Below, in pieces: positions 15,282-43,471 of a stretch of DNA of 64,000 bases. A program made the position numbers and the translations under genes. The notes beneath the pieces were generated by a model. It saw nothing but the letters and a program-made list of their open reading frames with translations, ran no database searches and was not told the origin of the DNA. Position 1 is the first letter of the stretch; every line of letters starts with the position of its first letter. The DNA is from Saccharothrix sp. HUAS TT1 (GTDB lineage: Bacteria; Actinomycetota; Actinomycetes; Mycobacteriales; Pseudonocardiaceae). The stretch lies in assembly GCF_040744945.1 (NCBI RefSeq), contig NZ_CP160453.1, forward strand, positions 496,001-560,000, written 5' to 3'.

Positions 15282-15296
15282 ACAACCACGTGCCCC

Positions 15297-15429
15297 CGAC
15301 AGTGTTGAACGGCCGCTGCTCCGCAGGCGGCGGCGAGGTCGCCGGGAAGTCGATCGTTCGCGCCTCATTTCCGGCGATCGGAAAGCGTGATCGCCGGAAA
15401 TGAGGCGCGAACGATCGACGCGACCTCGC
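15297..15429 (+). repeat. Palindromic element, copy A (133 bp)
   Basis: Starts CGACAGTGTTG (shared with copy C). Outer 10-bp stem GCGAGGTCGC (15333-15342) pairs with 15420-15429. After a 6-nt bulge come perfect 31-bp arms 15349-15379 and 15389-15419 around the loop GGAAAGCGT (15380-15388). It occupies the divergent region between adnA and the MGMT-like gene, so it may affect both promoters. Too long and loop-conserved for an ordinary terminator. Confidence 0.85.
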
Positions 15430-15482
15430 GTGCGAAGCGGTGCGGGTGATCGACGCGACCTCGCGTGCGAAGCTGTGCGGGT
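15413..15482 (+). repeat. 35-bp tandem duplication reaching the MGMT-like start codon
   Basis: 15413-15447 is repeated at 15448-15482 with one base changed. The unit starts in the right arm of the palindromic element (GATCGACGCGACC) and ends GTGCGGGT, so the second copy supplies the candidate start codons of the next gene (GTG 15475 or 15481). Confidence 0.85.
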
Positions 15483-27830: not shown

Positions 27831-27942
27831 GCGGGGCACGCTACCTGCACCGGGGGCCCGTTTGGTGGACCTCATGCCCGGAACGCGCGGTGTCCACGCA
27901 TTCGGCCCAACCGCACTATTGCGGTCTCACCCGACCCGACCC

Positions 27943-28061
27943 GCGAGGTCGCGTCGACCGTTCGAGCCCGGTGTTCGAGGACCACGCTTTCCGGTCCTCG
28001 AACACCGGGCTCGAACGGTCGACTTCCCAGCGACCGAGCCCGCGACGCCGAAGGCGGCGCA
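27943..28061 (-). repeat. Palindromic element, copy B (inverted orientation)
   Basis: Perfect 31-bp arms 27953-27983 and 27993-28023 enclose ACGCTTTCC (27984-27992), the reverse complement of the loop in copy A. Outer stem 27943-27952 pairs with 28030-28039 with two mismatches, and the 6-nt bulge (28024-28029) is on the opposite side, as expected for an inverted copy. Bases 28041-28061 match copy C 42482-42502 with one difference on the other strand. It ends a few bases from the moeZ stop. Confidence 0.85.
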
Positions 28062-28063
28062 GA

Positions 28064-29236
28064 TCAGTACGTCGGCAGCGAGGGGTCGACCTCGCGGGCC
28101 CAGGCGAGCACGCCGCCGCCCACGTGCACGGCGTCCTTGAAGCCGGCCCGGTGCAGCGCCGCCAGCGCCTCCGCCGAACGCGCGCCCGACTTGCAGTGCA
28201 GCACGACCTGCTTGTCCTGCGGCAGCTCGGCGAACGCCTCGCCGGACAGGATGCGGTCCTTCGGGATCAGCACCGAGCCCGGGATCTTCACGATCTCGTA
28301 CTCGTGCGGCTCGCGGACGTCCACCAGCAGGAAGTCGTCACCGGCGTCCTGCTTCTGCTTCAGCTCCAGCGGCGTGATGGTGTTGCCCGCGGCGGCCTGC
28401 TGGGCGTCGTCGGACACCACGCCGCAGAACGCCTCGTAGTCGATCAGCTCGGTGATCTTGACGCTCTCCGGGTCCTTGCGGATCTTGATGGTCCGGTAGG
28501 ACATCTCCAGGGCGTCGTACACCATGAGCCTGCCGAGCAGCGGGTCGCCGATGCCGGTCAGCAGCTTGATCGCCTCGGTCACCATGATCGAGCCGATCGA
28601 CGCGCACAGCACGCCCAGCACGCCGCCCTCGGCGCACGACGGCACCATGCCGGGCGGCGGCGGCTCGGGGTAGAGGTCGCGGTAGTTCAGGCCCTGGCCG
28701 TTCGGGGCGTCCTCCCAGAAGACGCTCACCTGGCCCTCGAACCGGAAGATCGAGCCCCACACGTACGGCTTGCCCAGCAGCACGGCCGCGTCGTTGACCA
28801 GGTACCGGGTGGCGAAGTTGTCCGTGCCGTCCAGGATCAGGTCGTAGTCGCGGAAGATGTCGAGCGCGTTCTCCGAGTTCAGGTGGACCTGGTGCAGCAC
28901 CACCTTCACGAACGGGTTGATCTCGGCCACCGAGTCGCGCGCCGACTCGGCCTTGGGCTTGCCGATGTCGGACTGACCGTGGATGACCTGGCGCTGGAGG
29001 TTCGACTCGTCGACGATGTCGAAGTCGATCACGCCCAGCGTGCCGACGCCCGCCGCGGCGAGGTAGAGCAGGGCCGGGCTGCCCAGCCCGCCCGCGCCCA
29101 CGACCAGGACCTTCGCGTTCTTCAGCCGCTTCTGCCCGTCGACCCCGACGTCCGGGATGATCAGGTGGCGGCTGTACCGCGCGACTTCTTCCTTGGTCAG
29201 CTCCGCTGCGGGCTCCACGAGCGGCGGAAGCGCCAT
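28064..29236 (-). CDS. moeZ: MoeZ: ThiF-type adenylyltransferase fused to rhodanese
   Basis: 390 residues from ATG 29236, with AGGAGG six bases upstream. An E1-like domain has the ATP-binding loop GAGGLGSPALLYLAAAG, the adenylation region (LILDGTDNFATRYLVND) and CAEGGVLG; a C-terminal rhodanese domain (about 290-390) carries the active Cys in LHCKSGARS. MoeZ adenylates and sulfurates the C-termini of sulfur carriers such as MoaD and CysO/ThiS-like proteins, serving molybdopterin, cysteine and thio-metabolite synthesis. Conserved with M. tuberculosis Rv3206c and its neighbours. Molybdopterin is needed by the nearby NasA. Confidence 0.93.
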   Translation of the reverse strand: MALPPLVEPAAELTKEEVARYSRHLIIPDVGVDGQKRLKNAKVLVVGAGGLGSPALLYLAAAGVGTLGVIDFDIVDESNLQRQVIHGQSDIGKPKAESARDSVAEINPFVKVVLHQVHLNSENALDIFRDYDLILDGTDNFATRYLVNDAAVLLGKPYVWGSIFRFEGQVSVFWEDAPNGQGLNYRDLYPEPPPPGMVPSCAEGGVLGVLCASIGSIMVTEAIKLLTGIGDPLLGRLMVYDALEMSYRTIKIRKDPESVKITELIDYEAFCGVVSDDAQQAAAGNTITPLELKQKQDAGDDFLLVDVREPHEYEIVKIPGSVLIPKDRILSGEAFAELPQDKQVVLHCKSGARSAEALAALHRAGFKDAVHVGGGVLAWAREVDPSLPTY

Positions 29237-42444: not shown

Positions 42445-42467
42445 GGGGACAAGCTACCGATGACCAC

Positions 42468-42600
42468 CGACAGTGTTGGATTGCGCCGCCTCCGGCGTCG
42501 CGGGGCGAGGTCGCCGGAAGTCGGCCGTTCGTGCCCGGTTTCCGGCGATCGAAGGGCGTGATCGCCGGAAACCGGGCACGAACGGTCGACGCGACCTCGC
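42468..42600 (+). repeat. Palindromic element, copy C (133 bp)
   Basis: Same 5' end CGACAGTGTTG and exactly the same total length as copy A. Outer 10-bp stem GCGAGGTCGC (42505-42514) pairs with 42591-42600; a 5-nt bulge; 31-bp arms 42520-42550 and 42560-42590 pair with a single G.T position; loop GAAGGGCGT (42551-42559). It lies between the PHP and RecB-type genes. Confidence 0.85.
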
Positions 42601-42620
42601 CCTAGCCCTAGCCCTAGCCC
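42599..42620 (-). repeat. (GGCTAG) tandem repeat giving consecutive in-frame stops
   Basis: On the minus strand the PHP gene ends GGC TAG GGC TAG GGC TAG, so three stop codons follow in frame. It abuts palindromic copy C. Confidence 0.8.
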
Positions 42621-43471
42621 ACCAGGATCTTGCAGCCGGTGGCCCGGTCGGCCAGGGCGTCCAGCACGTCCGGTGACGTCGTCTCGGCGCCGAGGCGCAC
42701 GGTCTTGTTCGTGCCGTGGTAGTCGCTGGACCCCGTGGTCAGCAGGCCCAGCTCCCCCGCCAGCCCGCGCAGCCGCGCCCGCGTCCCCTGGTCGTGGTCG
42801 GGGTGGTCGACCTCGACGCCGGCGAGCCCCAGCCCCGCGAGGTCGGCCAGCACCCGGTCGGCGACGATCGGCCCCCGCGACACGGCGAACGGGTGCGCCA
42901 GCACCGTCACGCCGCCGGCCTCGGTGATCATCTCGATGGCCCGCTCCACCGGCGTGTCGGTCCGCGGCACGTAGTAGCGGCCGCCGGTGAGGTACCTGGC
43001 GAACGCCTCGTCGACGCTGGACACGACGCCGGCCCGCATCAGCGCCATGGCCAGGTGCGGGCGTCCGGCGGGCGCGTCGGCCGGCATGGACGCCATCATC
43101 TCGTCCGGGTCGACGGGGAAGCCGTCGGCGACCATCCGCTCGGCCATCCGGCGCAGCCGCTGGCGTCGTTCGAGCCGCAGCCGCAGCTGCTCCTCGACCA
43201 GCGCGGGCGAGGTGTGGTCGTACAGGTAGGCGAGCAGGTGGACGGTGATGACCCGGCCCCGGCCGTCGTCGGAGGCACAGGACAGCTCGGCGCCGCGCAC
43301 CAGCTTCAGGCCGGGGGGCAGCGCGTTGGCCGCCTCCGCCCAGCCCGCGGCGGTGTCGTGGTCGGTGAGCGCGACCGCGCTCAAGCCGGTGGCGGCCGCG
43401 GCCGCCACCAACTCCGCGGGCGTGTCGGTGCCGTCGGACTCGGTCGAGTGGGTGTGCAGGTCGATGCGCAC
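42614..43471 (-). CDS. PHP-domain phosphoesterase (RNase AM-like)
   Basis: 285 residues from GTG 43471, six bases after CAGACT (leaderless type). PHP metal-binding motifs in order: DLHTHSTESDG, LTDHDT, GAELSC, HLLAYL, AHPF, and GSSDYHG near the end. The N-terminal and C-terminal parts resemble TrpH/YciV-type proteins, which remove 5'-phosphates or act as 5'-3' exonucleases on RNA (RNase AM). Cytoplasmic. Three successive stop codons end the gene. Confidence 0.88.
   Translation of the reverse strand: MRIDLHTHSTESDGTDTPAELVAAAAATGLSAVALTDHDTAAGWAEAANALPPGLKLVRGAELSCASDDGRGRVITVHLLAYLYDHTSPALVEEQLRLRLERRQRLRRMAERMVADGFPVDPDEMMASMPADAPAGRPHLAMALMRAGVVSSVDEAFARYLTGGRYYVPRTDTPVERAIEMITEAGGVTVLAHPFAVSRGPIVADRVLADLAGLGLAGVEVDHPDHDQGTRARLRGLAGELGLLTTGSSDYHGTNKTVRLGAETTSPDVLDALADRATGCKILVG

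Follow-up and report, generated by a model that had tools for sequence, protein, structure and literature searches.

A dispersed palindromic repeat of Saccharothrix and related genera that probably spreads as a folded single strand

The window analysed here is a stretch of 64,000 nucleotides from Saccharothrix sp. HUAS TT1 (C1:496001-560000 of a genome of 8,715,755 bases on 2 contigs). Three long hairpins are found in it, and the locus raises the question of what they are and how they came to stand at three separate places. A preliminary description of this DNA had listed a non-autonomous mobile hairpin and a structured RNA among the candidates. Our analysis indicates, with a probability of roughly two in three, that they belong to a mobile repeat of ~120-135 bp, non-autonomous, present in several genera and spreading as a single strand of fixed polarity.

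Anatomy of the element

The three copies were located where the preliminary description had placed them, with B in the opposite orientation to A and C. Each contains inner arms of 31 nt, which pair perfectly in A and B and with one G.T in C, and a 9-nt loop, GGAAAGCGT in A and B and GAAGGGCGT in C. The outer stem that had been described is present; in B, however, it is not fully paired, since GGCTCGGTCGC stands opposite GCGACCTCGCG (tandem G.A/A.G on the opposite strand). The folding z of the 144-nt windows of A, B, and C was -8.8, -9.2, and -11.4 against dinucleotide shuffles. The features are as follows.

15297..15430, minus strand (the strand under folding constraint): copy A, tail at the low-coordinate end (R1, 152.6 bits)
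15296..15303, no strand: junction of copy A, CCGACAGT, read by eye
15312..15331, minus strand: short hairpin of copy A
15332..15342, minus strand: outer stem of copy A, first side
15343..15348, minus strand: one-sided bulge of copy A (CGGGAA on the plus strand)
15349..15379, minus strand: inner arm of copy A, 31 nt
15380..15388, minus strand: 9-nt loop of copy A
15389..15419, minus strand: second inner arm of copy A, 31 nt
15420..15430, minus strand: outer stem of copy A, second side
27942..28075, plus strand (the strand under folding constraint): copy B
27953..28023, plus strand: inner hairpin of copy B (arms 27953-27983 and 27993-28023, loop 27984-27992)
28024..28029, plus strand: bulge TTCCCA of copy B
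28042..28060, plus strand: short hairpin of copy B, loop GAA
42468..42601, minus strand (the strand under folding constraint): copy C
42467..42474, no strand: junction of copy C, CCGACAGT, retained in several relatives with an empty site, read by eye
42483..42501, minus strand: short hairpin of copy C
42520..42590, minus strand: inner hairpin of copy C (arms 42520-42550 and 42560-42590, loop 42551-42559)

In addition to the stem, every element contains a short hairpin and a tail, and has a polarity, none of which the preliminary description had listed. With the strand opposite to A taken as the reading strand, a weakly conserved C/A-rich lead (CCACCA) and the outer stem CGCGAGGYCGC come first, followed by the inner stem of ~31-33 bp with its loop ACGCYYTTC; after the second arm there is a bulge (TTCCAG, for example) and then the second side of the outer stem. 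The short hairpin, with a 3-nt loop of GGA or GAA, itself covaries (helix 3 of the 32-copy alignment). The tail AATCCAACACNG is conserved over 12 nt and ends in ACNG, with no conservation beyond it, and the side opposite the tail is weakly conserved for about 6 nt. Across the 32 copies the outer stem carried G.A 23 and A.G 21 times and Watson-Crick pairs 8 and 8 times, so that the tandem G.A is the commoner form. Tandem G.A pairs in a CGAG context are stable in both RNA and DNA.

Some arrangements around and within the copies were observed separately. Three CCCTAG repeats adjoin the end of copy C (window 42597-42621), and G-rich, microsatellite-like stretches follow other copies of this genome. 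A 35-bp tandem repeat at window 15410-15477 takes in the end of copy A, and a similar repeat follows L101. In L109 (3911-4045) the loop and inner arms are inverted within an outer frame of normal orientation.

Copies, relatives, and covariation

More copies exist than the three of the window. Eight full ones were found in this genome, on C1 at ~291, 511 (A), 524 (B), 538 (C), 597, 755, 1513, and 8056 kb, together with one extra converging fragment beside the copy at 597 kb, where full copy and fragment face each other between two genes (C1:596947-597139). Eight further R1 hits are reverse-strand matches overlapping the same copies, which is what palindromes should give.

The family also extends beyond this genome. 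With the best 56 candidates per genome scored, a number attained or almost attained in several genomes, R1 matched at least 24 of 60 genomes including this one, and at least 22 of the 25 genomes of the genus Saccharothrix, with no match in three species; copies per species range from 0 to over 50 within the genus. R2, whose 32 source copies were taken in the orientation of the folding strand, matched at least 69 of 297 genomes of the Pseudonocardiaceae in 9 of 46 genera (E up to 1e-4, best 11 candidates per genome) and at least 14 of 397 genomes in the order-wide search (E up to 1e-8, best 8 candidates per genome), the latter reaching one genus only beyond the family. When copies from six other genera were read, the ends, bulge, and short hairpin recurred, and the arms differed genus by genus. 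A degenerate pattern found 95 stretches in named genomes, and the 80 listed comprised 79 from Saccharothrix and one from Tsukamurella (L123); the latter was rejected as a chance match, R1 giving no hit there at E up to 0.001. Phages and plasmids were rejected as carriers: the exact pattern was absent from viral contigs, and the single plasmid match was a partial one of 38 bp in an Amycolatopsis plasmid. Rfam gave no matches in the window, and on the loci of five relatives, searched at E up to 5, the best match on the element was mir-341 with 30.7 bits, where the gathering score is 90. No prior description of the element was found in the literature searched.

Covariation of the stem exceeded chance. 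In the alignment of the eight copies (A2), each of the 348 cells was paired under a hand-drawn structure of 44 pairs. Changes on both sides occur in 17 of these pairs, G.U accounts for one pair type, and none of 500 shuffles matched the alignment in paired percentage or in covariation score. The arm length itself shifts on both sides together (columns 73/108). The 32-copy alignment contained 1356 cells, of which 97.3% were paired, and 28 of the 43 pairs were changed on both sides; 0 of 500 shuffles were as high on any of five measures, and sliding the partners by 1-3 columns as a control left 28.9-46.0% paired. The preliminary description had named two outcomes that would count against it, a lack of further copies in the genome and its relatives and a lack of covariation, and both came out opposite. 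It had also offered homogenisation of the arms as an alternative to selection on the hairpin. This is not general, since relatives transmit mismatches from copy to copy, although the flipped inner part of L109 and the almost perfect pairing of all eight own copies are on its side.

Occupied sites, empty sites, and gene ends

Four sites of this genome were compared with the same place in 24 relatives by searching the loci with R2 and, in part, by reading them by eye. Elements or clear remnants were present in 8 of 25 genomes at site A, in 5 of 25 at site B, and in 6 of 25 at site C, own genome included in each. The fourth site, flanked by an rpfB-like gene (G5-transglycosylase) and a ksgA-like one (rRNA adenine dimethylase), was occupied or held a remnant in 9 of 22, own included, a count that leaves out three of the 24 loci (L301-L303). 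Short matches with E 0.001-0.08 were not counted (L190, L268, L263, L292, L295, the second hit of L300, L290, L194, L269, L234, L196), of which that of L190 is the native hairpin after moeZ; L238 (E 0.0012) was counted since its tail and short hairpin can be read. Site A in G001 and G002 looks by eye like a remnant and was left uncounted.

Empty sites exist in the relatives, and some are short and clear, such as site C in G022 and G017; at site C in G013 no R2 match was present on either strand. Comparison by eye of occupied site C in G014 with G022 and G017 revealed no target-site duplication, with CCGACAGT at one side, the remaining sites being too diverged. The CCGACAG(T) at the junction of A is probably native, because it can be read by eye in several relatives whose site is empty. 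Loss of the hairpin with retention of the short hairpin or the stem ends is seen, again by eye, in several copies, and some of the shared sites may go back to a single old insertion with later losses. With the further copies and the covariation, these occupied and empty sites support the mobile hairpin that the preliminary description had put forward as a candidate.

At the rpfB-like/ksgA-like site, a variant with the same frame and different arms was found in G005, G015, and G018. L291, L297, and L300 of these three genomes represent a second subfamily with long imperfect arms, arranged in tandem in G005 and G015. In L301-L303, from the element-free species G011, G003, and G013, the same site holds a different hairpin, GAAGCGGAGGCC...CTCCGCTTC, which G011 and G013 carry as a tandem.

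Position relative to genes was read on 112 copies with our own simple gene caller. Where a gene runs towards the tail without overlap, the tail end lay within 5 nt of the stop codon in 39 of 55 cases, so that a hairpin shortly after a stop codon, a feature of intrinsic terminators, is found there; at the opposite end 6 of 69 facing stop codons were as close. Called genes were overlapped by 8 copies, and the tail side faced a gene start in 47. In the window, a minus-strand ThiF-rhodanese gene has its stop codon (28064-28066) overlapped by the tail end of copy B. At the moeZ-like site, a terminator-like hairpin falls within the 75 nt that follow the stop codon in 17 of the 24 genomes read (z <= -2, 60 mononucleotide shuffles), and in G000 (this genome), G008, and G010 the element occupies its place. 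Standing where relatives have such a hairpin, the copy probably assumes that role locally.

Polarity of the fold and modes of spread

Neutral change in a stem is expected to leave G.U and A.C mismatches equally frequent. On the proposed strand in Saccharothrix, G.U was found in 210 cells and A.C in 10, or in 86 and 10 distinct contexts, descent being ignored; these counts used 97 of 111 copies, after omission of 10 unparsable ones and 4 with more than seven mismatches. The same 97 copies contained G.A in 29, C.U in 1, C.C in 58, and G.G in 14 cells. In five other genera the ratio of G.U to A.C was 76:8 overall and 19:3, 29:4, 15:1, 6:0, and 7:0 singly, as counted on 66 of 90 copies (length 100-260, with 18 or more helix pairs on each strand; the 4 from g49 all fell outside). 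Mismatches common to more than one copy were G.U and A.C in 176:0 cells (30:0 contexts), against 34:10 for private ones (Fisher p 4e-8 for cells and 0.004 for contexts, which are not independent and carry no phylogenetic correction). The complete skew of the shared mismatches indicates that the constraint bears on the copies that multiply, and the excess of G.U on one strand suggests that the propagating form is probably a folded single strand, RNA or ssDNA. A mobile hairpin and a structured RNA need not exclude each other, because the spreading copies bear a strand-specific folding signature.

Other observations bear on the same polarity. The switch of the outer stem between Watson-Crick pairs and tandem G.A points to the same strand. 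Against it, the proposed strand folded better than the opposite one in only 75 of the 98 Saccharothrix copies (of 111) taken into the comparison. When 99 Saccharothrix copies were folded on the opposite strand, 98 G.T pairs appeared, of which 86 occupy the loop position and 12 lie elsewhere; in the invariant loop, an A faces a C on the proposed strand, which is a possible loop-closing G.T on the other strand, and this position was scored as loop. Part of the G.U excess could be explained by a strand-biased mutation process, and the private mismatches are skewed as well. The ratio of G.U to A.C in shared versus private mismatches offers a general computational test of whether a repeat propagates as a folded single strand, and of which strand it is.

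We infer that the propagating form is a folded single strand of the proposed polarity, either RNA or ssDNA. Its fold would comprise a long stem, free in sequence as long as it stays paired, the one-sided bulge, the outer stem, the short hairpin with its 3-nt loop, and the tail ending in ACNG. An enzyme acting in trans would recognise the constant parts, and would join the tail end to host DNA where a CNGT-like motif stands, in many cases straight at a gene end. The long stem may be the part that provides length and stability, and many copies would subsequently lose it through deletion. Candidate movers were sought by protein family. A Y1 transposase was rejected, Y1_Tnp (PF01797) being found in 5 of 25 genus genomes and absent from G000, G015, G009, G001, and G004. 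A reverse transcriptase was rejected too, RVT_1 being found in 10 of 25 genus genomes, none of them this one, with a presence that does not track copy number.

The fixed polarity and the dispersed sites have to be weighed against explanations that do without spread or without a fold. Ordinary transcription terminators or 3' structures, selected in place and immobile, would fit the adjoining stop codons and the exchange of hairpin and copy at the moeZ-like site. However, sequence is shared between unrelated sites, copies carry mismatches in common, the tail side often faces a gene start, and copy numbers within one genus run from none to over 50 with both occupied and empty sites; the immobile reading is already disfavoured by this presence/absence pattern, and we regard it as very improbable. 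It also seems quite improbable that the arms owe their perfection to DNA repair or to template switching between them, without selection on folding. Such a process predicts neither the one-strand excess of G.U nor the lack of A.C among shared mismatches, although it agrees with the almost perfect state of 8 of 8 own copies, the inverted inner part of L109, and the numerous hairpin deletion forms; template switching or repair may operate alongside selection.

The nature of the strand admits an RNA and a DNA version. In an RNA-templated, SINE-like retroposon the element would be transcribed, and a trans-acting reverse transcriptase would copy it into DNA, with a CNGT-like 3' end of the host, paired to the ACNG of the RNA tail, as primer. 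The new copy would have a sharp junction at its tail and a loose one opposite. Such junctions are observed, the folding constraint sits on the would-be RNA strand, and remnants of partial elements were found on the tail side of 8 of 111 copies versus 2 of 111 on the other side (one regular expression), some with another short-hairpin type than the adjoining full copy (by eye). Against this, Pfam RVT_1 is absent from this genome and from the element-rich G015, G001, G004, and G014 and present in the element-free G011 and G013, no conserved promoter precedes the element, and no target-site duplication was seen at site C by eye; we consider this version unlikely. That the element is a bacterial counterpart of SINEs, a short protein-less structured RNA copied back into DNA with a constant tail priming insertion at gene ends, is likewise doubtful. 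It is rather unlikely that the element is a single-stranded DNA repeat like REP or IS200/IS605, moved through cut and paste by an HUH enzyme. Such a repeat would account for the hairpins, the non-autonomous copies, the insertion beside a short motif, and the lack of target duplication where the site is clearest (C, G014 versus G022 and G017). Y1_Tnp, the one HUH family searched, is nevertheless missing here and confined to 5 of 25 genus genomes, and CNGT as left target would make the acting strand the one without the wobble signature.

In its short length, intergenic position, and lack of autonomy, the mobile repeat with a folded strand resembles other interspersed palindromic repeats. Of the features that define REP/RAYT, retrons, or Rfam families, it shows none of those tested. 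Palindromic repeats in bacteria are commonly credited to Y1 transposases. REPs of E. coli often adjoin stop codons, according to passages of PMC12306157. The element shares with REP/BIME and RAYT (Y1) systems that it is short, intergenic, palindromic, multicopy, and often at stop codons; it differs in being longer, its two hairpins are dissimilar, its stem changes freely, and it has a 12-nt tail and no Y1 gene in the genome. In REP/RAYT systems a GTAG-type tetranucleotide precedes the palindrome. MITEs, which have target-site duplications and a parent transposon sharing their ends, are likewise non-autonomous and variable in copy number, with presence and absence at orthologous sites, but the element has an asymmetric anatomy, no target duplication seen by eye where the site is clearest, and no parent transposon among the two families searched. 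The MIRUs of mycobacteria also lie between genes with ends near or over stop codons; they are direct repeats rather than long hairpins, which sets the element apart. The msr-msd RNA of retrons similarly combines an outer stem, a small hairpin, and a long variable hairpin, whereas in the element the order of parts differs, copies are dispersed and many, and no linked reverse transcriptase exists in the genome. If the RNA-templated version were right, the likeness to eukaryotic SINEs would lie in the structured RNA, the sharp tail junction, and the loose other end, the element differing in having no identified reverse transcriptase, and it would be a protein-less retroposon in bacteria.

The family thus spans several genera, known mover candidates are absent from many of its carriers, and its mismatches reveal the strand that is read as a fold. 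Whether RNA or DNA, the copies would rewrite gene ends and substitute for terminators in antibiotic-producing soil actinobacteria. As a post hoc observation, all eight own copies fall in a region of about 2 Mb that spans the start of the 8.5-Mb contig, and the listed copies of G015 are dispersed chromosome-wide.
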